In this document: positions 1,775-15,918 of the stretch, piece after piece
How the letters are laid out: each line of letters opens with the position of its first letter
Position numbering within the stretch: the stretch's first letter is position 1
Source of the DNA: a virus
DNA: 22,625 nt
Direction: 5' to 3' (one strand)
Virus record (IMG/VR): IMGVR_UViG_3300030060_003933
Span: 1 to 22,625 of that record
Notes under the pieces: generated by a model
The model's database searches: none
What the model was told of the DNA's origin: nothing
Seen by the model: the letters and a program-made list of their open reading frames with translations, nothing else
Position numbers and translations under genes: made by a program

Positions 1775-2113
1775 TTATTTACTACTAAGGGCAATATCCG
1801 AGCTAATTGCAAATAGCTCTACATATGTGTTTGAATGATTTTCAAAAGTAACGTCCGCATAGTAACCTTTTAAACTAGACTCGTTAACTTCTGCTTTTTT
1901 GGCAAATAATATAAATTTAGTGTTATCAATAATAGGTGGTGTTGATATATCTTTATCTATGGTAACAAAACCATTTCCTATACCTATTATTTCACCAGCT
2001 AACTCAGGTGGTGCAAGTACACCCCCAACGCCTACGTCAGCAACATAAATCATATCACCTATTTGTGCCGAGGGATTAACGTTATTATTAAAAAATATCT
2101 TAGTATTTGCCAT
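1775..2113 (-). CDS. Small virion-associated protein of unknown function
   Basis: This 112-residue protein follows the beta-rich 406-residue protein with a gap of 9 bases, so the two are probably co-translated or at least co-transcribed. The centre (GDMIYVADVGVGG, then FVTIDKDI and KFILFAKKA) alternates hydrophobic and polar residues, which suggests a small beta barrel or sandwich. The C-terminus (GYYADVTFENHSNTYVELFA followed by ISSDIALSSK) resembles a short conserved protein I recall from marine and cyanobacterial phages, always annotated as hypothetical. There is no signal peptide or membrane segment. A minor structural role is inferred from its place among virion genes. Confidence 0.75.
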   Translation of the reverse strand: MANTKIFFNNNVNPSAQIGDMIYVADVGVGGVLAPPELAGEIIGIGNGFVTIDKDISTPPIIDNTKFILFAKKAEVNESSLKGYYADVTFENHSNTYVELFAISSDIALSSK

Positions 2114-2122
2114 GTTTTATTT

Positions 2123-3343
2123 TTAAGATCCTGATATGCCTAATGTTATTATTTTTTCTAAATCTAAATATATTGTTTTATTTGCCGTAGGATATTTAGT
2201 TATATTAATAGTGCCTTTAAAGTTTACAATTGAATGGCATCCGGTAAAAGTAATAACAGCGCCTTTTCTTAAAGTTTGAGTTAAACTTACTACCATAGCG
2301 CCATCACCATCTGATCCATCTGGATCTGGAGTAACTGATGTTACTGTATTGGCACTACTGTTGTTAACTCCTTCGCCTTTGTATTTAACGACACCACCAC
2401 CACTTATACCAAGTGTTGCCCCTAGTCTTACAGTTGTCGATGTGGTATAATCACCATCGGAATCATCTCTAAGCGTGGAAGTAACTGTATTACCTTCAAA
2501 TTTAATTCCATTAAAAGACAATTGAAGCCCAACGGCTTTTTCAATATTTTTTACCCCATACGCTTTAAATGTTAAGGTTATTCCATCTGAGAAAGTTTGA
2601 GCAGAATCTAGTGTTATTGTTTTAGTACTTGTATCTATAGCTGTTATCCTAGGTGTTCCACTTAGGCTTCCAGCGCTAACACCAGTTATAATACTACCAA
2701 CGCCTATATCTGTTATATCATCAAGAACAACTGTAGTACCACTTGACACAGCTCCATTAACAGTGTCTGTTGTTGTGCAATACCAATATTTGTCATTTAT
2801 AACAAGAAGAGAATTTAATAATCTAAATCCATGACTTTTTGCGTCTGTAGTAGAATTTGTTACATTCCAATTAAAACTAAAAGTACCGCTTGAGTTAACT
2901 GCGCCAGTTGAAGTTGATGTTGGTAATGTAGCATAATTAGCGGCGTTGGCAGAGGAAGTGCCAGGTGTAAAAGTTACAGTTGCATCTGAACTTAACTTTG
3001 TTATATTTTTAGTTATAACATTACTTGTAGAACCTTGTATCAAAGTTCCACCAATACCCATTAATTTAATAACAAACTCGCCTGCACTAGCTGGAAATAT
3101 AATGTTTTTGCTATAAGAGGTTCCTGTAAGTGTTTGCTCTAAATTATTATCTAAATTATTATGGCCACTTTCAAAAGAATTATTTTTAAAATCATAATAC
3201 AAAGTTTGGCTTGAAGAACTACTAGGGTTTTGTAATGCAATAATTCTAAATCTTGCACCAGGCTCGCCAGTTACAGTAAAATTTCTGTTAACAATTCCAG
3301 CTGGTAAATCAATAGTGTTTATTTGTAGATTATTTATTGTCAT
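2123..3343 (-). CDS. Beta-rich virion protein with two copies of a beta module
   Basis: This 406-residue protein is low in Cys and rich in Thr, Ser, Gly, Asn and Val, as is usual for extended beta-structure on phage particles. The N-terminal 120 residues (FTVTGEPGARFRIIAL, then FPASAGEFVIKLMGIGG) look like an immunoglobulin-like sandwich. Two related modules follow, at residues 196-260 (TTVVLDDI, then TKTITLDSAQTF, then ITLTFKA) and 298-368 (TTVRLGATLGISGG, then MVVSLTQTL, then AVITFTG). A further related module sits in the nozzle protein upstream. The start at 3343 is 11 bases after the nozzle stop, in a different frame. A tail- or capsid-surface protein is the best inference, since it sits right after the nozzle; a direct function cannot be read from the sequence. 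Confidence 0.75.
   Translation of the reverse strand: MTINNLQINTIDLPAGIVNRNFTVTGEPGARFRIIALQNPSSSSSQTLYYDFKNNSFESGHNNLDNNLEQTLTGTSYSKNIIFPASAGEFVIKLMGIGGTLIQGSTSNVITKNITKLSSDATVTFTPGTSSANAANYATLPTSTSTGAVNSSGTFSFNWNVTNSTTDAKSHGFRLLNSLLVINDKYWYCTTTDTVNGAVSSGTTVVLDDITDIGVGSIITGVSAGSLSGTPRITAIDTSTKTITLDSAQTFSDGITLTFKAYGVKNIEKAVGLQLSFNGIKFEGNTVTSTLRDDSDGDYTTSTTVRLGATLGISGGGVVKYKGEGVNNSSANTVTSVTPDPDGSDGDGAMVVSLTQTLRKGAVITFTGCHSIVNFKGTINITKYPTANKTIYLDLEKIITLGISGS
2240..2452 (-). repeat. Beta module copy B in the 406-residue protein
   Basis: Residues 298-368 follow the scheme of a V-x-L strand, a G-G turn, a variable loop with Asp/Gly/Ser, then a long V-V-S-L strand and a final A-V-I-T-F strand. The adjacent copy at residues 196-260 and one in the nozzle gene share this scheme, although sequence identity is low. 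Confidence 0.5.
2564..2758 (-). repeat. Beta module copy A in the 406-residue protein
   Basis: Residues 196-260 contain SSGTTVVLDD, a VGSIITGVSAG turn region, then TKTITLDSA and GITLTFKA. The nozzle module near 9565-9800 shows the same order: STSVVLDTD, VGDLVSGDGV, NAITLSAN and GAVLTFTS. This is the clearest resemblance between two genes in the window. Confidence 0.6.
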
Positions 3344-3354
3344 ATTTATTTTTA

Positions 3355-6300
3355 TTAATATCCACCACCACCTCCACCTCCACCAGTTGTTCCACCAGTA
3401 GCTGGAGGCGCGGTTGGAGGCGTAGTCGTCCCATTAGTAGTAGTTCCACCACCACCACCATTAGTTCTAAATGCAGCTCCATTACCATTTCCAACGCTTT
3501 GAACACTGCTAACCATCCCAATTCCTTGAACGCTGAAAATACTAGTATCTATATGTTGGTTTATATTTGAACCTTTAATATAATTAAACCATTTACCTTC
3601 TTTTTTGATAAACTCAACAACAGTTCCAGTATCTAAATTTGTTTTGATTTCTGAGCAGTTCCAACCTTGTATATCTTGTCCAGCACCCCAAGCTGCGGCA
3701 TTATCAATAGTTATTTCATCTTGCGTTGGCTTAACTATATATGCTTGGCTACCTTCGTAGTTTAAAGTGTTAAACATTTTTACAGATGATGGGTCTTGAT
3801 TTAAAAGAGCTTTTATGCTTGAGTGACTATTTTCACCGTAAAATATATTATAGTTATTAGCTTCATCTGGAGTATACTTAATAAAGAAACCATTAGCGTC
3901 GGTATATCCAGTGGCATTATCTAACTTTGGTACATAGTGTTGATATAAACCACCTTGTTTAAGTGTAAAGTATTTTTTAGATAAACTAACACCACTTTCT
4001 GGTACAAAGCTTTTAAAGCTACTCCAACCGTTTACACTTTCATTAAATGTAATTGTTGTGTCAGGCGTTTCGCTATAAACTCTTACCATAGATATATTAT
4101 CTATATAGCCATTTATATTTTCAGTATTATCTTTATTTGCTACTATAACAAAAGTATCTTTATAATCAGCATTAAAAGAACCATAAGGAGCTGGTTGAAC
4201 TGGATTCCAATTCTCTTGACCTATACTAACAATTGTTTCAAATGGAGTTGTATTTGGATCTACAGCAGTATTACCAGCTGAGTTTTGGTCTATACTTTCT
4301 ATTCTAAAACCAAGACCAGCGCTATTGTAATAATAAATATCTATTTTACCACTAGTTATTCCATGAGTAAAACTAATTCTATATTGATCAAATTGTATAG
4401 GCATGTTAGTACCTGAGAATAGAACAATTTGTTGGCTAATACTTATAAACTCTGTATTAGCAGGCTCATATATTGGACACTCGTCAAATACAAAATAGTT
4501 ATTCACATTGTCTAAATAAACATAAGGATCAACCATAGCAGGATCAAAACCATTTGTATTCCAAAAACCAACTTCACCAACTAAAAACTCATTTTGCGTA
4601 GGTACTAAAGACAAGTTGTTAACAGCGTATTCTTGGTCTTGTATTACAGGTATATCATTGTAAAACTTTATTTCATTTAAAGTATTACTAGAGTTAAACA
4701 CACTATCAATAGCTGTTTCAATATTTGCGTTAGGATATTCAATATAATTAGCACCATCATACCTAGTAATTGTCCAATCATTAGCATCTTGAGCGTTATC
4801 TAAATCAAAATTAATTCTATAATCACCTGTTTGTTGTATACCAGTAAATGATATTCCTCTATAAAAACCATCTCCATTGTCAATAGCCATTACACCACCA
4901 AGAGATCCAGAAAAATTATTGGTAATAGGGTTGTTGCTAACTGTAAATTCTAACTGCCAATTTCCTTGATGTAATAAAGCTGGATTTGCAAAACTTTGTG
5001 ACCAATTATTGTATTGAGCCGCTGACAAAGAATCTAAAGGTATCTCCCAGCATAATTTGCTATTTTTAAAGTATGTAGTGTTGTTATCAAAACTGTGAAC
5101 GGCTGTAGAAGCAGGACTACTCCAATCTACAGGATCTCCAGCGCTTGGAATATCATCTAATTTCTTAGTAATTATTTTTTTAATTTTAATACCACCAACT
5201 ACTTTATCAACTACAATACTGAAATTTGTCGGTGCGTTATTGTAAAAGAAACTATTATTAGTAATTTTAAATATAGTTCTCAATACTGTTTCTTGAGTTC
5301 CGTATTCTGTTCTAGTTACTGGTAGCAGTACAATATTAAAACCATTCGTATGCCAAACGCCAACACCGTCAATATCTACTTCTTGCCCAGGAACTCCAGA
5401 GCCATCACCAATTCCACGCACCATGACTTCACCGTCTGTAATTCCAGCGTCTGGATTATGCGTTTGATCCCACTCAACATCTACTAAATACCAACTACCA
5501 ATACTCCACGGCTCAATAGATATATCGTGTGCTACGTAAGAAAATCCATTTGCAGGATTTTCAATATATATATAATTATTATCGTGTAAAACTAAATCAT
5601 TAATTGTTGGCGTTGGAGGTGTTGGACTTCCTTGTACAGCTTGGAAATTAATACCTAAACCAGACGTACCAGTTCCAACAGTTCCAGGTGGATTTTCTGT
5701 TCCATTTCCAAAGCCATCATCTGTAAAATCAAAACCACTTGGCACTACATAATTTATAGGTGTTGATGGTGGTAGAGTAGGATCGTTAGTATCTGCTCCA
5801 AATGCAGTTGCAGCTTGTGTAGGATAATTATCACCAAAAACAGTCACGTCTTCCGCATGAGTGGATGTTATATTTCCAACGCTAGCCCCAGCGTTAGTAG
5901 TAATATCCCAAGTCGGTGTTGGTAAAGTAAAATAATTATGTTGAACTTCTGTCCAGGCTGGTATATTAACCGGTGGAACAGGATCTACAGGGTGTACTTG
6001 CCATACTGGTAAAACCTCTGGAATACCAGTTTGTATAACCCCAAAACCTTTAACTACTTTAACACTGTCTATTCTAAAGCATGCTTTTTTTAACTCACCC
6101 CAACTAGGCGAATACCAGTTCACATTGCCTGATGGTGTTTCTGGCTCGTCATTGTATAATCTAATTCTTAAATCATCTATAACTTTTTCAACAGGAGTAC
6201 CAATTTCATAGTCTCTACTAGCACCTTGGTTTGGATTGGCGGTAGATTTTTTTAGTTTAAAACTACAGCTAATTGTAAACTCTCTTATATTATTTTCAAG

Positions 6301-9300
6301 TCCTACTCCGGCGATATTAATACTTGCCTGCCCAATACCACAACCGAAAGGAGTCATATTAAAAAATCTATTTTCATGGTTTCTAACGTCCCAGTTGTCG
6401 AATATATCGCAACCAGTTCTGCTAAATAACACAGAGCCATTTTCCTGCCAGCCAAAAGAATCAAAATAATCATCAGGAGTAACTACGTCACCATCATAAT
6501 AAGGCGTTGTTCCAGTTGATGACAAAAGAGCAGAGTATCCTCTACCATATAGTGTATCGTCTGACCATATACCATTATAATTAGCTGTGTTAGTTGTATA
6601 TCGCGTCGTAGTAAATCCACCATCTCCATCTGTACCACTAAAAGGCGTTGAGTGCAAACAGTTAAAAGGTGTAATATCATCAACCGTACTAGCCCTAATA
6701 TTACCATCATTGTCCCAGTCTGCATAAACATCTCCATTTTGCATTTCTATAGCTGTTGGAAGACCAGTGAGAATATTAGTAGCTGTTTGTTCTTCGTACA
6801 AGCTATTGCCATCACTAGTAGTAAAAGAAAAGCTATTAACATCAGCGATAATATCTGGATCTACAACAGCACCTGTTGCACCGTCAAAAATTTCTATTCT
6901 AGGTTGTGTAATATTATATCCGTGCTTAGCCATATATTGTTCATCATAATCGGAGTTTTGGTTAGTAAGAAATGTTTGAGTAAGCCCTAACTTAATTTGA
7001 ACATGTATCTCTTCGCCAGCAAAACAACTACTATGAGTTACTTCAGTTGTGTTTTCAGTGACGCCAGGCGTGCTATCAAGAACATTGTCTGGATCAAGAA
7101 GATATTGCTCAACAAGATCTCCAGTTGGATTACCATTATCGTCATCAATTCCAAAATTACCAAATTCTACCCAATGACCATCACCACACCTATTCCACCA
7201 AAGACCTGGCTTATTGTGTACACTTGCCTGGTAGTTTCCATTGCTCCAAGAAGCAGATACATCAAAATCATACATAGGAACATCAAAACAAACAGTTTTC
7301 TTGACTACTGTAGCTGTAGCATCATTATAACCGAATGCCATATTGTATTTGTAATACGGTGGAATTTGCACGCCATAAGTATTATATGTGTAATTTGATG
7401 GATCAATAAAAGTACCACCTTGGGTTGCGATCGACTTAATATTAACATCTGGTTCAATAGGATCTCCATATGCATAACCTTGGTTGTTTGCAACCGTTAA
7501 ATTTGGGTTAGCAATAGAGCTAATATAACCATGAACATGATATGTTCCATCAAAACCTCCTTGCGAATACCCGCCTATAAAAGCATTAGGCGAGGTTCCT
7601 AAATTACCTAAATTTATACTCATATAGTCTAAATCTATCATTAGACCGTTAGTATTACTACCGCTACTAGCTAAAGGCTCATCAAAACCATAAATACTAG
7701 TCGCGGTATTACCAGCTATACTACTACCACCAAACCAAACGGGTCCTTCGTCAGAAGGCGCGACAATTGGTACACCTGTTACTCCTGGCTCTAAACTACC
7801 AGCGGCAATTGCTCCGTGGTGTATAATATACGCAGAACTAGTTAAAGCGTAAGAAGCAGCTGTAAAATCATCCCAATTAAAAGTATTAGTAGAATCATTA
7901 ATATTAAGTATGTCATAGGTATTATATAAGTACTCAAAATCTGTCCCATCATTAACACCAGGGTTTTCTATTCTATTTGTTATATCTAGGTTTACAATTG
8001 GATCACCACCAAAATCTAAATATTCATCTTGTAACAAATTAACACTAAAATTATTGTTAGATAGTGTTAAGTTATAATCTTCTTTATAGCTATCATAAGT
8101 ACCTATTAAAGAATTATACTCTGTTAAATTATCTCTAAACCAATCGTGCATGCCAGCTTTAGATATAGGTGTTAAGCCATCTTTCGATAATCTAAGTACA
8201 GCACCTCTTTGTTTGTCTGTAAAATAAGTTCTATAAGATTCAGCGGCAAAAGACTCTGGATTTTTTGAAATACCATACTCCCCTGAAAATGGATTTGCGT
8301 CACCAAGAACTTTGTTACTAGCAACTAATTGAGGATTACCATCTGCGTTAAATATAGTGTCTTTATTTGCTACTATACTAACAACTCTGTCTTCACAAAA
8401 AGCAATTAAACTAATTCTTCTTTGAAATAATTTTTGAATACTACCAAACGTTGGGTTTAAATCTTTAGTGATTTTTTCAGCCATTATAAACTGATTTAAA
8501 TCATTTAAACTAGAGTTGGCATTGTATATACCAGAGTATATTAAACTAGTTGCTCTTCTCTCTTCTTCATATGTTTCTTGTGTAGTTGTAGACGCTTTTA
8601 CACCATTAACAATAAAAATCTCGTTAAAATCATCTCTAATCCTGTTAGACTCAATACCATTACCAAAAGAAAAACAATTATACCAGCTTAATCCAGTGGT
8701 TATAACATCACCAATATTTTCTTTAAATATAAATTTAGTTTTATATTCATCTTCTAGCGGGTCTGTTGCTTGAACACTTGCCTCAGCCACAGTGTAACTA
8801 CCGTCTTGTCTAATAAATTTAAAAGACATATTAGAGTAATCTATTTCTGTTTGATTACCGTTTTCGTCGACGTCATATTTAGAAAAGCCTGGGTGTAAAG
8901 TCGCTGTAGCGTTATCCCAAGACTGTATTATAGAAGAACTTGTAATAGAAGAATTTAATACTTCAACCGTACAACCAACAGGTGCAAATAATTCATTTGT
9001 TTTATCATTTATTTTTACAGGTATATTACTACTAGCCTCGTAATATATATCTAAATCTACTTTACTTTTCTTTGGATCAGTCTCCCAAATCGCTGGAAAT
9101 TTATTTAAATCAGAAAGAAATATATCTTTAACTGGATCTAAAAACTCAATATTACAAAAGTTACCATTAGAAATATCAGCGCTCATCACGTTTTCAGTTA
9201 ACAATGGATTACCAACGTTACTATTGGAAGTGTTTGCTGGATTTTTATCTAACTCAATTATATAACAAACTCTTCTATTATGAGAGGCACCAAACTCAAC

Positions 9301-12300
9301 AATCTTATTTTTAAAATTGTTTATTTCAGTTGTTGCGCCTGTACTTTTACCTGTTGCGTCAACGGTATTTAACCAGTCTAAACCAACGCGTTCTACACTA
9401 AGGTAATCAACGTTTGTACTAGCGCTTGTGTATACGTAACCACCTTCACTATCAAGATATCTATTGTAAGGTTTTCTCCACGAAGTGTGATTATATAATT
9501 TTTTAACATTAATCTTTTTAATTGTATAAACCTCTGTATCAGTATTTTCCGCCACTTTAACACTACCGTCTGCGCTAGTAAAAGTTAAAACAGCACCAGC
9601 TACAATAGTTGCGTTTGCTGATAGTGTTATAGCGTTAGCATTACTACCAACATTTACAGCAGCTATTGTTGTGCCAGAGTCAACACCATCGCCGCTAACT
9701 AAATCTCCAACCTCTATGAAGTTAGATGGCTCTGGGTCTTGTGAAGCGGTGTATAAATCTGTATCTAAAACAACCGATGTACTAGCACTAACCGCACTGC
9801 TAACTGTACTTGTTACAAAATTTTGTGATTTTTTATTAAATCTAAATTGTGAGCCTGGATATAAATTTCTTATAAAATCACGAATTTTATTTTCATCATC
9901 TCCGCTGTTTGTAAAAGTTGGATCCCATTGTCTTTCATAAAGCTCTTTGTATTCCTTGTCGTATCCATATCCAACGTCAGGCCCTGGTGCTTCTTTTTTA
10001 AATTTATCACCACTGTCAGAGTGGTTATTTTCCATGGCTAAATGAAAATGTTTTTGAGAGGAAGAACTAGCAGAGCCAAATTTTTGTGTATTATTTTCTC
10101 CAGTAAAAACACCTCCACCCCATATACCTTGTAATTGTGCAGCCCAAGAGTTTTTACCATATAAAGCTTGAGTTGTATCTGGACTAAAACCGTCAAAATC
10201 GCCATCATGCAAATCTTTACCAGGCGCAAAAAACGATAAGTGCATAAAATGTCTATCTATTTCTCCGTTAGCAGAATAAGTGTTAGTGTCGCTACCAGCG
10301 CCATGCTCCGTAGCGTTAGAAGTAATACCACTAAACCATTTTCTAGGGCCAGTAGCATGTGTATCTGTTGTAGTCACTAATCCTTCTAAACCATTTATAT
10401 GATCAGCCGTAGGGCTTTCTATATTTGGAGCACTGTTAACGTCCTCATCATGAATGTGTCTATCAACTTTTTGCAAGGGCCCAACCCATCCATCAATTTT
10501 TTTATTATAAAACGATTTATTAGATTCTGATATGGGTGACGTAGATATTAAATTATCATTAAACCAAACAGAATTTGATTTTAACTTGCTTCTTAAACCT
10601 GAAATATCTTCAAACTCTGTTATCCAAGTTTTTAACGGTGGATAACTCCATGCTGATTCTGTTTTAGAAGTAGCGGTATGATCAACTAAACCTGGTTCGC
10701 CACCAAGACCAGCCCAAGTAATACAACAGTATTTAGCATTATCACTTGCCTCACTTTGACCAGCTGCCATGTGCATAGAGTCAACAAAAAAAGTAGGGCC
10801 AAACGCATCAAAAATACCTTCCCAAGCGTCGTGATAATCTGTAACTCTTAACTCAATACCATCGGCATCTACATCACCAACAGTGTTGTTATTAATATTG
10901 TGAATATCATCTATACCGGTAAAAGTGGTTTGATAACCATTATAATTTAAAAGCCCATAATTAGTAATAGTACCATCACCAGTTATATCTGCTGTTGGAG
11001 AGCCAGAAGCAATATTGTCTTGCCAGTACCAACTAGAATTTTTTGCTGTAACTTGAAATTGTTTAGTAACATCTATAGCGCCTCCAGATTGTATTGTATC
11101 AGTAATTTGATTTTTAGAAATTTTAACAAAAAATTTACCAGAAAAATCTTCTTGTGGTCTAAGCTCTCTTTTTTCTATTTGAAACGCTAGATCAGGATGT
11201 AAAAGATCTTGAGATGTATCAGAAGAGTTACCATTAACATGCGCTATATCAGCGTCAATACTTGTAATTTCACTTTGTAAATTTAAAACATACTTGTCAC
11301 TTGCGAACCATCCGCCTGTAACTTTGTATTTTTTAGAAGCTGAATTATCAATACCAATTCTTCTCCAAGAAACGTATAAATCTTTTTGTATACCACCTTC
11401 TCTTCCAAGCATATCTGATAACTCAGATCTGAAATCGGTTAAAAGAGTATCATCGTGTTTCCACATATCTTTAGATATAACAAGTTTATTTGTAGTTTTA
11501 TCTGGTCTAAAACTTTGCTTATAAAATAAAGAATTACTAGTTGTTGGCGTGGCTGCTGCTAATGTATTATTACTATCATTTGGCTTTACGCCTAAATTTA
11601 ATAATTGATATTTTAAAACATCTGGCGCTTCGTTTTTAATATCAATAACTTTATATTTGTTTTCAGTGGAAACTTGCTCTTCTCCAGTACCTATTTTCTT
11701 TTTTAATATTATATAATCTTCTTCTGTTATTTTATTTCTATCAGTAGAAGGAAAAGAAATATATATATGGCCTTCAGAATTATCTAGTTCATATGTACTT
11801 TCTGTAACCCAAGCTCTTTCCATTGAAAGATTATAATATTGATTAGAAGTTTGTTTTACAAAAAACTTTAATGAATCAACCCACTCTGGAAAATTTGTAA
11901 CTATACTAGAGTTTAATTGAAGACTTTTACTAGCGTTTTGATTACCACTAGAGTCTTGCCAAGGAATATTTACAGCGCCATCTGTTGAGGTAAACACAGG
12001 TGTTTCTCTACCATGCTTGTCACAATAAACAACACCTAGTTGGTAATTTCTTTGAGATTTTACGTGTGGTAAGCCTTGTGTTTCAAAAGTATTTAAGTTA
12101 ATCCTATCTCCATAGCTAACTACAATATCAACGTCTTCTTCTATATCATAACCCTGAACGTAATTACCGTATACAACTCTATTACCAGTAACTTCTTGCG
12201 CTTGTGCTTTTTTAGGTACATTATCCCAAGGTCTTAACAATTGGTTTTCTGGTAAAACAGCATAAATATTTTCTGTTGTTACTATATATTTACCTTTAGT

Positions 12301-13683
12301 TAAAGAACCATGAGCCTTATAAGTACCATTTGTAGTGTCATCTGATTTACCTAGTCCTAAATCAACACCTAAACCTTCGTGATTACTTTGGGTGTGCCAT
12401 CTATTATCTATTTGTTTTACTGTATCAATAGAATAAATAACATTAGACTCTTCTTGTTTAAATAATATGTCTATTTCTATTACATCTTCAGGTGTTTTAG
12501 CTGTAATAAAATCAGTTAATTCTACTGAGTGAATAGAATTAACCATAGCTTTATTAGAAGGATCTTTTATATCGTATGCGTTGTCTTTATTGTAAAATAT
12601 ATTTGAATCAAAAGAAACACTTGTGTCTTTTGGGTATTTAGGATTAAACACAGGGGTTGTAAATGGCGCGAAAGCAGAGTACTCACCATCTTTGTATTTA
12701 TATCTGTAAGAAAATCTAGGGAATTGTGTTTCGAATATATTAGGAATAACACTAGTAGTGTCTACGGTATCTGAATAATTTATTTTTACAGATAAAGCAT
12801 TTAAAGGTTTTTGTTTTACAACTATAATATGGCGCTCTTCTATATCCATAGTAATGTCATTACCAAAAATAACATCACCTTTTTGCCAAGCCGTACTATC
12901 AATATTTAAATCAGTAAAGTTATCTACAGCGTGAAAATATGTACCTATATTATTGTCAAAAATTACAACATTTTTTAAACCTAAATACTCGGTGTCTCTG
13001 TAATGTTTTACAACACTTTGAATACTTGTAAAGCCAGGTGGAATACCATCAGTATTTAACATGGCATCTAATTGTTTTGAGTCATACCAAACTCTTTCAC
13101 CTTCGTCAAGAAAAACAAAAGGATCTGTTGTGTTGTCTGTTATAAGATCTAAAGTTATACCATCAAAACTACCGTAATCAAACAGCAACTGAGTGTGATT
13201 CCACGTTCCATTATTGTTTATAGTAGTACCTTTTTTACACTCGTCTATATTTATTTTTCTAGGCTCATTGATATTATCTGTCCAAAGCAATAAATTACCA
13301 ATAATATTTATACCTGTTATTATATTACCTGGAAATTTTAAAACAGCGTCAGAAGTTCCAGCGTATAAATCTATAAAAACAAAAGAAGATGTTTTTTCCT
13401 CTAAACTATACTCAACTATAGCATCTTTACCATAACTAGAAATAAACCAATATAGTTTATTTGTTTTTTCATCAGCAACACTACCAACGCATCTATATCC
13501 ACTAGGTATAATATTTTCTAATCTATGATTACCTATAATATTTTTAACAACACCAACGTTAGAGCTTTCTGATGTAGAAACTTCTACATTTAATGCATCT
13601 CTATATTGTCCATTAGGTAATAACCTCTCATCAAGGTCTTTGTTCATTTTACCTTGTAGAAAATTGTTTTTAATTTCCGGCAT
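3355..13683 (-). CDS. Giant tail nozzle/stabilization protein with adhesin-like insert
   Basis: This 3442-residue protein is uninterrupted and takes 46% of the window. The N-terminus (NKDLDERLLPNGQYRDALNV at 14-33, LLLWTDNINEPRKINI at 131-146, SYRYKYKDGEYSAF near 325-340) matches beta-propeller-type nozzle or stabilization proteins of short-tailed phages, the 'muzzle' of crAss-like phages. Core motifs continue to YGISKNPESF near 1802 and IGTYDSYKEDYNLTLS near 1858-1874. About residues 1900-3280 differ: they are Asn/Thr/Gly/Pro-rich beta sequence with segments that end like jelly-roll binding domains (FRIDSVKVV near 2538, GYIDNISMVRVY near 3195). The conserved style returns at TLNYEGSQAYIV (near 3305) and EFIKKEGKWFNYIKG (near 3358), followed by a Gly/Thr/Pro tail. 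Related nozzle proteins are, from memory, about half as long or shorter. It starts 3 bases after the ring-protein stop, in the same frame. The nozzle role is family-based; the binding role of the insert is inference. Confidence 0.8.
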   Translation of the reverse strand: MPEIKNNFLQGKMNKDLDERLLPNGQYRDALNVEVSTSESSNVGVVKNIIGNHRLENIIPSGYRCVGSVADEKTNKLYWFISSYGKDAIVEYSLEEKTSSFVFIDLYAGTSDAVLKFPGNIITGINIIGNLLLWTDNINEPRKINIDECKKGTTINNNGTWNHTQLLFDYGSFDGITLDLITDNTTDPFVFLDEGERVWYDSKQLDAMLNTDGIPPGFTSIQSVVKHYRDTEYLGLKNVVIFDNNIGTYFHAVDNFTDLNIDSTAWQKGDVIFGNDITMDIEERHIIVVKQKPLNALSVKINYSDTVDTTSVIPNIFETQFPRFSYRYKYKDGEYSAFAPFTTPVFNPKYPKDTSVSFDSNIFYNKDNAYDIKDPSNKAMVNSIHSVELTDFITAKTPEDVIEIDILFKQEESNVIYSIDTVKQIDNRWHTQSNHEGLGVDLGLGKSDDTTNGTYKAHGSLTKGKYIVTTENIYAVLPENQLLRPWDNVPKKAQAQEVTGNRVVYGNYVQGYDIEEDVDIVVSYGDRINLNTFETQGLPHVKSQRNYQLGVVYCDKHGRETPVFTSTDGAVNIPWQDSSGNQNASKSLQLNSSIVTNFPEWVDSLKFFVKQTSNQYYNLSMERAWVTESTYELDNSEGHIYISFPSTDRNKITEEDYIILKKKIGTGEEQVSTENKYKVIDIKNEAPDVLKYQLLNLGVKPNDSNNTLAAATPTTSNSLFYKQSFRPDKTTNKLVISKDMWKHDDTLLTDFRSELSDMLGREGGIQKDLYVSWRRIGIDNSASKKYKVTGGWFASDKYVLNLQSEITSIDADIAHVNGNSSDTSQDLLHPDLAFQIEKRELRPQEDFSGKFFVKISKNQITDTIQSGGAIDVTKQFQVTAKNSSWYWQDNIASGSPTADITGDGTITNYGLLNYNGYQTTFTGIDDIHNINNNTVGDVDADGIELRVTDYHDAWEGIFDAFGPTFFVDSMHMAAGQSEASDNAKYCCITWAGLGGEPGLVDHTATSKTESAWSYPPLKTWITEFEDISGLRSKLKSNSVWFNDNLISTSPISESNKSFYNKKIDGWVGPLQKVDRHIHDEDVNSAPNIESPTADHINGLEGLVTTTDTHATGPRKWFSGITSNATEHGAGSDTNTYSANGEIDRHFMHLSFFAPGKDLHDGDFDGFSPDTTQALYGKNSWAAQLQGIWGGGVFTGENNTQKFGSASSSSQKHFHLAMENNHSDSGDKFKKEAPGPDVGYGYDKEYKELYERQWDPTFTNSGDDENKIRDFIRNLYPGSQFRFNKKSQNFVTSTVSSAVSASTSVVLDTDLYTASQDPEPSNFIEVGDLVSGDGVDSGTTIAAVNVGSNANAITLSANATIVAGAVLTFTSADGSVKVAENTDTEVYTIKKINVKKLYNHTSWRKPYNRYLDSEGGYVYTSASTNVDYLSVERVGLDWLNTVDATGKSTGATTEINNFKNKIVEFGASHNRRVCYIIELDKNPANTSNSNVGNPLLTENVMSADISNGNFCNIEFLDPVKDIFLSDLNKFPAIWETDPKKSKVDLDIYYEASSNIPVKINDKTNELFAPVGCTVEVLNSSITSSSIIQSWDNATATLHPGFSKYDVDENGNQTEIDYSNMSFKFIRQDGSYTVAEASVQATDPLEDEYKTKFIFKENIGDVITTGLSWYNCFSFGNGIESNRIRDDFNEIFIVNGVKASTTTQETYEEERRATSLIYSGIYNANSSLNDLNQFIMAEKITKDLNPTFGSIQKLFQRRISLIAFCEDRVVSIVANKDTIFNADGNPQLVASNKVLGDANPFSGEYGISKNPESFAAESYRTYFTDKQRGAVLRLSKDGLTPISKAGMHDWFRDNLTEYNSLIGTYDSYKEDYNLTLSNNNFSVNLLQDEYLDFGGDPIVNLDITNRIENPGVNDGTDFEYLYNTYDILNINDSTNTFNWDDFTAASYALTSSAYIIHHGAIAAGSLEPGVTGVPIVAPSDEGPVWFGGSSIAGNTATSIYGFDEPLASSGSNTNGLMIDLDYMSINLGNLGTSPNAFIGGYSQGGFDGTYHVHGYISSIANPNLTVANNQGYAYGDPIEPDVNIKSIATQGGTFIDPSNYTYNTYGVQIPPYYKYNMAFGYNDATATVVKKTVCFDVPMYDFDVSASWSNGNYQASVHNKPGLWWNRCGDGHWVEFGNFGIDDDNGNPTGDLVEQYLLDPDNVLDSTPGVTENTTEVTHSSCFAGEEIHVQIKLGLTQTFLTNQNSDYDEQYMAKHGYNITQPRIEIFDGATGAVVDPDIIADVNSFSFTTSDGNSLYEEQTATNILTGLPTAIEMQNGDVYADWDNDGNIRASTVDDITPFNCLHSTPFSGTDGDGGFTTTRYTTNTANYNGIWSDDTLYGRGYSALLSSTGTTPYYDGDVVTPDDYFDSFGWQENGSVLFSRTGCDIFDNWDVRNHENRFFNMTPFGCGIGQASINIAGVGLENNIREFTISCSFKLKKSTANPNQGASRDYEIGTPVEKVIDDLRIRLYNDEPETPSGNVNWYSPSWGELKKACFRIDSVKVVKGFGVIQTGIPEVLPVWQVHPVDPVPPVNIPAWTEVQHNYFTLPTPTWDITTNAGASVGNITSTHAEDVTVFGDNYPTQAATAFGADTNDPTLPPSTPINYVVPSGFDFTDDGFGNGTENPPGTVGTGTSGLGINFQAVQGSPTPPTPTINDLVLHDNNYIYIENPANGFSYVAHDISIEPWSIGSWYLVDVEWDQTHNPDAGITDGEVMVRGIGDGSGVPGQEVDIDGVGVWHTNGFNIVLLPVTRTEYGTQETVLRTIFKITNNSFFYNNAPTNFSIVVDKVVGGIKIKKIITKKLDDIPSAGDPVDWSSPASTAVHSFDNNTTYFKNSKLCWEIPLDSLSAAQYNNWSQSFANPALLHQGNWQLEFTVSNNPITNNFSGSLGGVMAIDNGDGFYRGISFTGIQQTGDYRINFDLDNAQDANDWTITRYDGANYIEYPNANIETAIDSVFNSSNTLNEIKFYNDIPVIQDQEYAVNNLSLVPTQNEFLVGEVGFWNTNGFDPAMVDPYVYLDNVNNYFVFDECPIYEPANTEFISISQQIVLFSGTNMPIQFDQYRISFTHGITSGKIDIYYYNSAGLGFRIESIDQNSAGNTAVDPNTTPFETIVSIGQENWNPVQPAPYGSFNADYKDTFVIVANKDNTENINGYIDNISMVRVYSETPDTTITFNESVNGWSSFKSFVPESGVSLSKKYFTLKQGGLYQHYVPKLDNATGYTDANGFFIKYTPDEANNYNIFYGENSHSSIKALLNQDPSSVKMFNTLNYEGSQAYIVKPTQDEITIDNAAAWGAGQDIQGWNCSEIKTNLDTGTVVEFIKKEGKWFNYIKGSNINQHIDTSIFSVQGIGMVSSVQSVGNGNGAAFRTNGGGGGTTTNGTTTPPTAPPATGGTTGGGGGGGGY
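3358..3460 (-). repeat. Low-complexity Gly/Thr/Pro C-terminal tail of the nozzle
   Basis: The last 30 or so codons are mostly GGT/GGA, ACT and CCA, visible on the plus strand as runs of CCACCA. They encode two polyglycine stretches separated by a Thr/Pro-rich spacer, ending in Gly-Tyr. The stretch is simple-sequence DNA and may vary in length by slippage. Confidence 0.85.
3844..7986 (-). other. Adhesin-like multi-domain insert of the nozzle (residues ~1900-3280)
   Basis: This part of the nozzle gene has a different composition from its flanks: it is richer in Pro, Asn, Asp and Trp, and has Pro-rich linkers (PVWQVHPVDPVPPVNIPAW near 2560-2578). At least three segments end in the D-x-[VI]-x-[VLM] strand typical of carbohydrate-binding-module jelly rolls. 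The motif GVWHTNGF near residue 2775 recurs as GFWNTNGF near 3040, which suggests internal duplication. The boundaries are estimates by eye. Confidence 0.5.
9565..9800 (-). repeat. Beta module in the nozzle, related to the 406-residue protein
   Basis: Nozzle residues about 1295-1373 contain STSVVLDTD, VGDLVSGDGV, GTTIAAV, NAITLSAN and GAVLTFTS in that order. The 406-residue protein has the same strand order at 196-260. The module sits between segments that look like ordinary nozzle sequence (FRNGS-type QFRFNKKSQNF before it, YTIKKINVKKLYNHTSW after it), so it reads as an inserted domain. Confidence 0.55.
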
Positions 13684-13686
13684 ATA

Positions 13687-15177
13687 CTAGTGTTTTATTT
13701 GCTTAGATTTGCCTCTAAGTATTTGAGTTAATTCTTCTAGTTTTAAATTTGATAGTCTTAGTTTTGCTAATCTTACTGCTGCAAATTTTTCTTTTGTTAA
13801 TCTTTTTACTAACGGCTGTCCATACGAAGACGTTGATAATATTGCATGTGCTATACACTTATACATCGCTTCTTCCGCGAATTTATGTACTTGCATTTCT
13901 CTATCTGTTCCAAGACTATCACTTATATAATCTAGTATCACAGTTTTTCCTGAAATATTAGAGCTAAAATGTATTTTTCCTAACCTACAGTCTACATAAA
14001 AAGACCCATTAGCTTGGGCACGCTGCGGATCTAAACCATATCTTTTTCCAGGCGTTGGCCAATAAGTATCATCTTCATAGTCATCATTGTTATTTTCTGA
14101 AGGCGTTGTAGCTTTATAATTATTCCAAGTTGAAGAGTTTGTTTCATTACCCAGCTTAGTAGTTAGTGTGTTATTAGCATAAGTATTTATAACAGATATA
14201 TTATCTACATTATTAGTAGCTTCTAAAGCTTCAGAGGCACTAGCTGTACTATAAAACTCATTGAAAGAAATTACTATTAAATATGCGGTATTAACACTAG
14301 ATAGATTTATTGCTATTATTTCTTTATCTGTTGCGGTAGTACCATCATTAGCAACAGTCCACTCCATATAGCTTGCGTCTCCAGAATCGGTTGAAAGATT
14401 AAAAATACTAGGATCCCAATTTGTAGTCCTTGGTAAACCGTTTGAATTACTAAGAAAGTTCATATTATTAACATCTGGTATTGTAGTACTTAAACCAACT
14501 CTTAGCACACCAGGAGAAACCCCCGTTGTATTTACAGCTAGTCCAGAGGCTGATAAATTTACATAATCTTTATCTGTTACATCTATCTCTTGATAAACAT
14601 AAGATGTATAACCCCAATTACTAGCACCACCAATGTTTCTAGTACCATGGGAAAATTGTAATTTTCCATTTGATATCTCTGATTTAACTATAGTTAATCC
14701 ACCGTGAGTAGTATCTTGGCTTTTTATCCAAGCGTCAAAGTTACCAGCGGCAAAGTCGCCATCTACAATTTCTTCTGCTTCTTCCGGAAAAGAATAATCG
14801 CCATCCTCTTCTTGTTTTATTTGAAATGGATTGTTAGTGTCATACGTATAATATAAAGGATGTTTTATACCTGCTGTGTCTACCCATGATACTCTCGTGT
14901 AATCAACGTAATCATGTGGTAATATCATTTTTAAAGAAGGTGGCACGTCTATTTGGTAAGACTTACAAGATTTTAAAGTATCAAAAGATAGTTCTTGCAA
15001 AGCTCTTTGCGCATGAAAAGCTATATCAGCTCTTTTTATTTTTGGTATTATTTTATTTTCACCAACATATGCGACTTCAAATTGACTTATAATATTATCT
15101 AAAGAAGTAAATTGATAATTACCGTGATCATGGCCTTGGTAATATTCTTTATGTGTTTGTCCGTCTAGTAATCCCAT
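13687..15177 (-). CDS. Tail ring/tubular protein with CBM-like insertion
   Basis: This 496-residue protein has two conserved-looking ends around an insert. Residues 40-130 (KRADIAFHAQRALQELSFDT, PPSLKMILPHDYVDYTRVSW, NPFQIKQEEDGDYSF) and 375-496 (KRYGLDPQRAQANGSFYVD, GKIHFSSNISGKTVILDYIS, EEAMYKCIAHAILS) match tail-tubular or ring proteins next to the nozzle in crAss-like and related marine phages, as I recall them. Residues about 136-331 are a beta-rich insert starting VDGDFAAGNFDAWIKSQD and ending NNVDNISVINTY, the usual start and end of a CBM4/9-type jelly roll. The C-terminus is basic. It would form a ring between the portal side and the nozzle. The start ATG directly follows the tandem TAATAA stops of the previous gene, with no ribosome site, so coupled translation is likely. 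Confidence 0.75.
   Translation of the reverse strand: MGLLDGQTHKEYYQGHDHGNYQFTSLDNIISQFEVAYVGENKIIPKIKRADIAFHAQRALQELSFDTLKSCKSYQIDVPPSLKMILPHDYVDYTRVSWVDTAGIKHPLYYTYDTNNPFQIKQEEDGDYSFPEEAEEIVDGDFAAGNFDAWIKSQDTTHGGLTIVKSEISNGKLQFSHGTRNIGGASNWGYTSYVYQEIDVTDKDYVNLSASGLAVNTTGVSPGVLRVGLSTTIPDVNNMNFLSNSNGLPRTTNWDPSIFNLSTDSGDASYMEWTVANDGTTATDKEIIAINLSSVNTAYLIVISFNEFYSTASASEALEATNNVDNISVINTYANNTLTTKLGNETNSSTWNNYKATTPSENNNDDYEDDTYWPTPGKRYGLDPQRAQANGSFYVDCRLGKIHFSSNISGKTVILDYISDSLGTDREMQVHKFAEEAMYKCIAHAILSTSSYGQPLVKRLTKEKFAAVRLAKLRLSNLKLEELTQILRGKSKQIKH
14185..14772 (-). other. Carbohydrate-binding-module-like insert in the ring protein
   Basis: Residues 136-331 show the layout of CBM4/9-type jelly rolls: an opening G-D-F/x-x-W strand (DGDFAAGNFDAWIKSQD), alternating strands (YVYQEIDVTDKDYVNLSASG), and a closing strand (NVDNISVI) followed by an Asn/Thr linker. 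The flanking protein reads as one ring protein when this part is removed. Sugar binding is inferred from fold resemblance only; no binding residues can be assigned by eye. Confidence 0.55.
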
Positions 15178-15180
15178 TTA

Positions 15181-15918
15181 TTATTGTTTTTCTAGTTGTA
15201 TACTTTTTACTTCTTCTTGAGCTGCTACCTGAAGTAAGTTAAAATCTTTTATAGCAATACCAGCTAGTTGTAGTATTTTAACAACTAAATTAGTTTCTTC
15301 AGATGAATGTAATTCAAAATGTTGATGATCAGCAGCATTTGGATTATATAATGCGTTTTTATTACTACCTATTAAATAAGTCCAATTAGGCGAAACCGGT
15401 CTTCTTATATAATTAATTTTTACATTACTACTTTGAACTGGGGCAGGATATATTCTAATTGAAACCGCTGAAGCTGCTGATGAAAATTTAGCATACACAG
15501 GTCTAGACTTTGTCCATATTGCTAAAGGAGATTTTTTATATTTGTTTAATTCATTTAATTGCAATTGCTCAGCTGTACAATAATCATTATTTTCATAACT
15601 TATATTTACCTCTCCTAATCTATATAAATCTGCAAAAGAAGAACTAACATTAGCTACGTCTGAATTATATGTAACACTACTATCATGTATTTCAAACATA
15701 TCAATTTTTTCTCCAAGATTAGTAACAATATCAGCGTAATCAAACTCGTTACCAATTGCTCTTTGCCTTTGTTCTAGGTCGTAAAAATATTGCTCAAAAA
15801 TATCCATTTGAGCATGATCGGCGAATAAGTTAAACTCTTGAGGTGTTATATAACCTCTTTGTTCTTTATTAGCTATAGCTAATACTTTTTGATACACTTT
15901 GTCTACGCTTACCGCCAT
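15181..15918 (-). CDS. Tail ring / head-tail connector protein
   Basis: The 245-residue protein opens with a motif I associate with ring proteins of crAss-like and marine short-tailed phages: YQKVLAIANKEQRGYITPQE then FNLFADHAQMDIFEQYFYDL (residues 9-48). The middle has beta strands (SIRIYPAPVQSSNVKINYIR near 150-170) and a YIRRPV motif followed by an aromatic PNW. The C-terminus is helical (ETNLVVKILQLAGIAIKDFN, then QVAAQEEVKSIQL). Its place directly upstream of the larger ring protein and the nozzle, at close spacing, supports a role in the connector. It ends with two in-frame stops, TAA TAA, followed at once by the next ATG. An exact match to P22 gp4, T7 gp11 or crAss ring proteins cannot be decided by eye. 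Confidence 0.7.
   Translation of the reverse strand: MAVSVDKVYQKVLAIANKEQRGYITPQEFNLFADHAQMDIFEQYFYDLEQRQRAIGNEFDYADIVTNLGEKIDMFEIHDSSVTYNSDVANVSSSFADLYRLGEVNISYENNDYCTAEQLQLNELNKYKKSPLAIWTKSRPVYAKFSSAASAVSIRIYPAPVQSSNVKINYIRRPVSPNWTYLIGSNKNALYNPNAADHQHFELHSSEETNLVVKILQLAGIAIKDFNLLQVAAQEEVKSIQLEKQ

Follow-up and report, generated by a model that had tools for sequence, protein, structure and literature searches.

The giant protein and its locus

The stretch of DNA analysed here (the window, 22,625 nucleotides) corresponds to bases 1-22625 of the 24,293-base IMG/VR virus record IMGVR_UViG_3300030060_003933, a genome fragment, and carries on its minus strand an open reading frame (ORF) of 3,442 uninterrupted codons with an ATG start (3355-13683). 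As judged from sequence comparison, the encoded giant protein is a crassvirus-type muzzle (tail nozzle), whose C-terminal propeller region is interrupted by a long insertion; this fusion-like arrangement is genuine, of old date and found throughout the clade. Read leftward, the genes of the window are TerL, portal, g395, major capsid protein, g276, g245, g496, the giant protein, g406, g112, g421 and g146, which places the muzzle after the ring proteins in a TerL-portal-major capsid protein-ring order. Cellulophaga phage phi38:1 (Pervagoviridae) and the Flavobacterium Elemovirus have the same annotated gene order between TerL and the muzzle.

The protein was identified as a muzzle by three lines of comparison. 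First, it matches PHROG 14478 (virion structural protein) at E=1e-127, with the best stretch at residues 1663-1878. Second, PF25729 (crAss_MUZ_C) is recognized at residues 3276-3370 (E=3.8e-10, 40.5 bits against a cut-off of 27), a family also matched at E<=1 by all 31 members of alignment A2, which comprises the window protein and 30 long relatives. Third, a profile of 11 short-form muzzles aligns with residues 1052-1291 of crAss001 gp44 (hhalign 96%, E=2.4e-9), and the segment that we call core2 (residues 1661-1884) is homologous in the window protein and in the short muzzles of that profile. The N-terminal family PF25731 (crAss_MUZ) was not reported for the window protein and is matched by its relative L041 (E=2e-10). 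An initial annotation of this DNA had taken the first 1900 residues and a C-terminal portion as a conserved nozzle, and PHROG 14478, PF25729 and homology to many relatives bear this out for residues 1-~1,890 and ~3208-3400. Conservation of the whole 1-1900 segment holds within the group, but minimal muzzles (1,031-1,049 residues) do without most of 700-1660. By analogy, residues 1-700, with a mean identity of 43-66% per 100 residues, may hold the ring-joining part, the first propeller blades and the first immunoglobulin-like (Ig-like) region, and the variable-length middle that follows is probably a crass/IG2-type region.

An insertion in a propeller hairpin

A scan of IMG/VR gave at least 78 related loci, 48 of them with a complete muzzle and all three core pieces; locus counts (17 short, 31 long, 48 complete) refer to the loci listed in that one scan. 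Between core2 and the C-terminal piece, which starts at residue 3208, 17 of the 48 loci have a spacing of -4 to 23 residues and 31 one of 1,025-1,435 residues, and none of the complete loci falls between 23 and 1,025. The insert is present in every long-form locus (31/31) and in no short-form locus (0/17), the C-terminal piece of the latter coming directly after core2. The smallest muzzles (1,031 and 1,049 residues; L057 and L054) consist of an N-terminal part, core2 and a C-terminal part only, the first two within ~80 residues of each other, and these three pieces therefore make up the core.

Core2 ends at the hairpin strand GTYDSYKEDYNLTL. The counterpart site in crAss001 gp44 lies between VYFTYK (ending at 1197) and DHCLCYSE, where two antiparallel strands are joined by a tight turn. 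Judging by the pattern of repeats that follows the IG2/crass region and by general propeller topology, the site would be the hairpin between the second and third strands of the sixth blade, and the same topology would place such hairpins on the face that bears the blade-to-blade loop with IG1. Variation in muzzle length has been published for the crass domain and IG2 (PMC10172136), and in the SU10 nozzle the domains are inserted between blades 2 and 3 (PMC9509320); as these sites lie elsewhere, the one in the window differs from them.

Alignment to the muzzles of relatives, proposed with the initial annotation, revealed that the inserted middle is absent from the 17 short relatives, phi38:1, Elemovirus and crAss001, and because of these muzzles without such an insert a reading of residues 1900-3280 as nozzle body appears disfavoured. 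Relatives of equal full-length architecture do exist, and their inserts show the same kind of beta-sandwich arrangement. A search of the insert against 50,697 GenBank phage records gave no match at E<=1. The coordinates of the parts of the protein, together with those of other genes discussed below, are collected in Table 1.

Table 1. Parts of the giant protein, neighbouring genes in the window and a repeat protein of relatives
Feature	Positions	Strand	Basis or remark
N-terminal core, residues 1-700	11584..13683	-	in all relatives, including minimal L057/L054
Variable-length middle, residues 701-1660	8704..11583	-	nearly absent from minimal muzzles
Core2, residues 1661-1884, C-terminal propeller blades	8032..8703	-	PHROG 14478; hhalign to gp44 1052-1197
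Insertion, residues 1885-3207, in propeller beta-hairpin	4063..8031	-	long versus short loci
Hypervariable block, residues ~1890-2550	6034..8016	-	identity profile, dN/dS
Pro/Thr-rich linker, residues 2551-2690	5614..6033	-	composition
Predicted beta-sandwich D2, residues 2700-2845	5149..5586	-	AlphaFold2 strands 2705-2841, pLDDT mostly 80-91
Predicted beta-sandwich D3, residues 2868-3030	4594..5082	-	AlphaFold2 strands 2870-3028, pLDDT mostly 66-93
Predicted beta-sandwich D4, residues 3055-3205	4069..4521	-	AlphaFold2 strands 3055-3202, pLDDT mostly 65-86
Rest of interrupted blade, last blade and crAss_MUZ_C, residues 3208-3400	3484..4062	-	PF25729
Gly/Thr/Pro-rich C-terminal tail, residues 3401-3442	3355..3483	-	translation; mostly gapped in relatives
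g245, ring-protein homologue (crAss001 gp34, R4/R5)	15181..15918	-	hhalign
g496, tail structural protein	13687..15177	-	PHROG 13977
g406, all-beta-looking protein, next gene	2123..3343	-	behind most muzzles of the group
g112	1775..2113	-	homologous to second half of PHROG 18548
g421	452-1717
~800-residue repeat protein, L032/G002	3585-5969	-
~800-residue repeat protein, G005	near 6970-7158
~800-residue repeat protein, G001	43413-45875

Sequence divergence of the insert

The identity of the giant protein to the 31 long relatives is 69-74% over residues 1701-1900, 17-39% over 1901-3200 and 53-54% over 3201-3400, with values of 17-33% per 100 residues in the hypervariable block. Pairwise comparison of the long muzzles (496 pairs) shows the insert, without exception, to be less similar than core2 and than the C-terminal piece (mean pairwise identities of 31%, 73% and 53%, respectively). 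Variation is concentrated in the first half of the insert, its edges and the domains D2-D4 being more conserved, so that a hypervariable domain sits on a conserved anchor, as is looked for in receptor-binding proteins.

The muzzles of L018 and L047 are 88-100% identical up to residue 1900, 16-49% at 1951-2450 and 67-92% (mostly 72-92%) from 2551 (core2, 97%; MUZC, 86%), and the L005/L019 pair shows the same drop in the first half with a less conserved second half. Identity of the block is thus close to background in these two pairs, whereas the flanking core of the three close pairs examined (these two and L033/L046) keeps 70-100%. These drops suggest replacement by another allele, in alignments that are poor at that distance. 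In the diverged blocks of both pairs the synonymous divergence (dS) of 1.3-3.9 may come from misalignment or from replacement of the allele, and the ratio of nonsynonymous to synonymous divergence (dN/dS) was taken only from L033/L046. In this pair, the closest informative one, dS is 0.10-0.18 throughout, and dN/dS reaches 0.79 in the block as compared with 0.02-0.28 elsewhere; codon differences within the block comprise 98 replacement and 33 silent ones, against 144 and 173 in the rest of the protein (Fisher p=1e-8).

Pairs of short muzzles (L045/L061/L063/L064) vary most in the middle region instead, around 1001-1300, so that the insertion seems to have shifted the variable face to a new place, as far as four loci indicate. 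No exchange of the hypervariable block between distant lineages was seen. A diversity-generating retroelement was considered as the source of variation and rejected, no reverse transcriptase (RVT_1) being present in 20 related records, of which many are fragments.

History of the insertion

A phylogenetic tree was built on core2 alone, leaving the insert out. Core2 was used because the major capsid protein, from which a tree was also attempted and discarded, is discordant with the neighbouring genes. In the core2 tree the insertion carriers of the group all belong to a single clade (35 rows, support 97/85), inside which L058 and L068, both without insert, are nested as the sister of L041, where a shortened insert is split across two ORFs. 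This tree requires at least three changes, among them an independent event in MW202828. As read from the tree, the insert is a single old acquisition of the clade followed by one later loss in L058 and L068, and the idea that it could be special to one phage gives way to that of an acquisition common to the clade.

The same hairpin has been disturbed in other ways. MW202828 (Podoviridae sp. ctfjg026, Manatee Spring), outside the carrier clade, has extra sequence at the hairpin that includes a 183-residue ORF labelled putative glycosidase, and its muzzle is split there into three ORFs. In L051 and L052 the gene is also interrupted at the insertion junction. These breaks, together with that of L041, indicate that the hairpin tolerates both insertion and breakage of the chain. 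Other lineages extend the C terminus, and the one in L038 has its homologue in a free ORF of 1,078 residues that follows the short muzzle of L039. BLAST of the insert against the separate ORFs of short-muzzle relatives found nothing except the split insert of L041.

Two observations on other parts of these loci were made along the way. In 11 loci (L065, L066, L069-L076 and L078) the muzzle is encoded by two ORFs, split between the N-terminal part and core2, and its propeller is therefore built from two chains. As regards the capsid, the major capsid protein is 96-100% identical in the pairs L004/L018, L006/L013, L035/L029 and L014/L023, with other genes at 25-87%, and the reverse is found in L033/L046 (73% versus 89-100%); the explanation is either a cassette-like exchange of capsid genes or chimerism of the contigs at that point.

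Predicted structure

Modelling with AlphaFold2 was run on 31-sequence alignments. For the piece holding residues 2700-3205 it predicts three beta-sandwich domains, with a mean predicted local distance difference test (pLDDT) score of 65 overall and mostly 70-93 inside the domains, so that the insert is all-beta where the model is confident; residues 1860-2560 were mostly modelled at low confidence (mean pLDDT of 47.8). D3 ends in NNLSLVPT and D4 in YIDNISMVRVY. The three predicted domains, plus a partly predicted fourth ending near 2546, agree with the at least three jelly-roll-like endings noticed at first in this region. The Pro/Asn/Thr-rich character then ascribed to the whole middle applies to the linker at ~2550-2690 (14.3% Pro and 15% Thr, without Lys or Arg), but the remainder is near the nozzle in composition, though poor in Lys.

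Foldseek matched the insert to CBM22 tandems, GH101, Cry/Vip3-type beta domains, viral CBM-cenC, LamG and tail-tip proteins, with E values of 1e-10 to 1e-3 but template modelling (TM) scores of 0.06-0.17 on the query. A sequence search of solved structures with four queries (P0001, A2, A3 and a domain of L041) found no relative.

Fibre-like genes and the role of the insert

The initial annotation had also remarked that the window lacks a separate tail-fibre gene. This is true and yet uninformative, because the record is a fragment and relatives with the same architecture carry a fibre-like gene elsewhere. Two long records of this architecture (57 and 60 kb, possibly incomplete) were read over nearly their whole length. 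In G001 a full-length protein of 590 residues, encoded 20 kb downstream of the muzzle, contains a stretch of PHROG 972 ('tail fiber protein proximal subunit', E=7e-6), and two further long-muzzle records keep its N terminus with a different remainder, a common pattern among fibres. At least three long-muzzle relatives therefore have both the insert and a fibre-like gene. In this regard, the proposal that a receptor-binding apparatus was fused into the tail core stands as far as a beta-sandwich block lies in a nozzle that relatives have without it, and as far as the insert evolves as an arms-race surface would; that it takes the place of fibres is not supported.

The best reading of the insert is a role at the host surface, a function deduced throughout from sequences and models, and most likely that of an additional contact module at the tail tip, beside separate fibres. 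Bayfield et al. proposed in 2023 that the phage touches the cell surface with the tip of its muzzle, and that insertions give the muzzle a different surface (PMC10172136). On balance, we consider it probable that this is a clade-specific muzzle whose hairpin is filled by a contact-like insert acting together with separate fibres. In a C-terminal propeller blade one hairpin now accommodates ~1,300 additional residues, the chain passing through a ~650-residue fast-evolving block, the Pro/Thr linker and three beta-sandwiches before completing the blade. Six copies of the insert would protrude at the tail tip, with the conserved sandwiches as an arm or platform and the hypervariable block as the face that contacts variable structures, probably glycans, on the surface of Bacteroidota hosts, and binding might be directly coupled to the opening of the muzzle gate.

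Several results weigh against a contact role. The dN/dS never exceeds 1, and fast change is also compatible with relaxed constraint. L058 and L068 lost the insert with no obvious replacement adjoining, and the fibre-like genes of the three long-muzzle relatives are separate from the muzzle and lie beyond the reach of this 24-kb fragment. No Pfam binding or enzymatic family was found above the curated cut-off in the insert or in its single domains, hence no recognized receptor- or carbohydrate-binding family, and a fold search gave no structural match for the hypervariable block, which has no confident model either. Since TM scores are at most 0.17 on the query, the fold likeness of the modelled insert seems only generic.

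A bolder version, in which the tail gatekeeper is also a major receptor-binding protein, with specificity in the hypervariable hairpin module, and in which this hairpin is a recurrent site of insertion and breakage in crAss-like phages, is held here only tentatively. With a specificity module built into the propeller hairpin, receptor contact would act directly on the gate.

That the insert is instead a mechanical extension of the nozzle, a conduit or scaffold, with host specificity in the separate fibres, we judge unlikely. Precedent exists in the multi-domain insertion into the nozzle propeller of SU10, whose four Ig-like nozzle domains straighten upon attachment and lengthen the tail (PMC9509320), and the conserved string D2-D4, with its fairly constant size, and the fibre-like genes of three long-muzzle records would suit such a role. 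A conduit should be conserved, however, yet the first ~650 residues change fastest in the whole protein; the site is not at blades 2/3 as in SU10 and crAss001 IG1, and L058 and L068 dispense with the insert. Quite improbable, too, is a weakly constrained decoration or general adhesin (for marine polysaccharide, particles or mucus) that would not determine host choice, for which speak the generic CBM-like sandwich folds, the absence of dN/dS above 1 and an insert divergence near background between most lineages (observed 0.29 versus a shuffled mean of 0.25). Such a decoration fits poorly with a size held within 1,025-1,435 residues in 31 loci, and with variation concentrated in one block next to more conserved edges and D2-D4.

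We see very little room for a sole receptor-binding protein fused into the muzzle of a phage without separate fibres. Among the tail genes of the window that were tested there is no fibre gene and no homologue of THA/THB or fibre gp22, and a gene behind the muzzle can be free (L039) or fused to its C terminus (L038), but in three relatives that have the same long form a fibre-like gene lies at a distance from the muzzle, no separate insert-like gene was found in short-muzzle relatives, and the record of the window is only a fragment. An assembly or annotation artefact, for which no specific support was found although some contigs of the group look chimeric at the capsid gene, is refuted by 31 separate contigs sharing the architecture with diverged sequence, and its probability is negligible.

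Under the preferred reading of a contact-like module in the gate protein, with relatives that do without the insert or have lost it, the question of how contact leads to gate opening would become directly testable in crAss-like phages, which are among the most abundant phages known. Moreover, the muzzle lengths recorded in sequence surveys are composites of an unchanging core and of modules that belong to particular clades and sit at more than one position.

Neighbouring genes and other genes of relatives

Next to the muzzle, PHROG and Pfam searches of g406 gave no family match above cut-off, and the first half of PHROG 18548, the family to which g112 is related, corresponds to the C terminus of the muzzle. 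The middle of g496 (~140-345) is variable, has a jelly-roll-like ending and is much shorter in distant relatives, making this a second tail protein with an insertion pattern resembling that of the muzzle. The similarity of g245 to crAss001 gp34 is weak but significant (hhalign probability 75%, E=2.6e-5, 142 columns). In g421, a probable cargo protein, 21-bp tandem repeats at 1265-1510 encode 7-residue repeats (NAFAGAK / YEGMENx).

Only one ring homologue was found among the tail genes tested in the window, where core Crassvirales have several paralogues, and because of this and the lack of THA/THB hub homologues among them the phage is placed, from its gene content, nearer the phi13:2/phi38:1 outgroup than the gut crassviruses; the ring and hub comparison relies on the phi13:2 outgroup as described by Bayfield et al. 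2023 (PMC10172136). The group consists of uncultured crAss-like phages, apparently of marine origin as presumed from the nearest isolates.

Long-muzzle relatives also encode a protein of ~800 residues that has a signal-like segment at its N terminus and contains many 'YGCTDPTALNYNPLANTDDGSC' repeats. The G002 version terminates in a sorting domain of the type IX secretion system (Por_Secre_tail, E=2e-7), and in G005 Por_Secre_tail is matched as well; a phage-encoded cargo of this Bacteroidota system would be unusual. The same repeat, of GCMDPLAINFDPLATFDDGSC type, is found too where the muzzle fragment of L041 is extended at its C terminus (L041:15698-18226), apparently also in the corresponding extension of L037, and is therefore common to the phage tail and this secreted-type protein. 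Near the structural genes of G001 (133-1725) and G002 (47924-49486) lie chaperonin-like proteins of 520-530 residues, GroEL-like by eye, that start with MEYNxPSEIVKDxxFGD...

Comparison with known systems

Among the closest known counterparts are the muzzles of phi38:1 (gp97, 1,324 residues) and Elemovirus (1,470 residues), whose core pieces are 33-35% identical to those of the window; both lack the insertion, their core2 and MUZ_C matches being 25 and 55 bases apart. The muzzle of crAss001, gp44 (1,371 residues; PDB 7qok/7qol/8ckb), shares with the window protein the C-terminal propeller region and crAss_MUZ_C, lies likewise behind the ring proteins in the structural operon and also has large domains inserted in propeller loops, namely IG1 and IG2/crass at blades 2/3 and 3; at its tight turn 1197/1198 the window muzzle has instead ~1,320 residues. 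The crAss001 muzzle closes the tail as a hexamer, and by analogy the giant protein may do the same. On the other hand, the likeness to the SU10 nozzle gp17 (PMC9509320) is architectural: a beta-propeller nozzle with an inserted string of beta-domains that protrude and move at infection. In SU10, however, the inserted domains are nozzle body, and the fibres bind by a dock loop.
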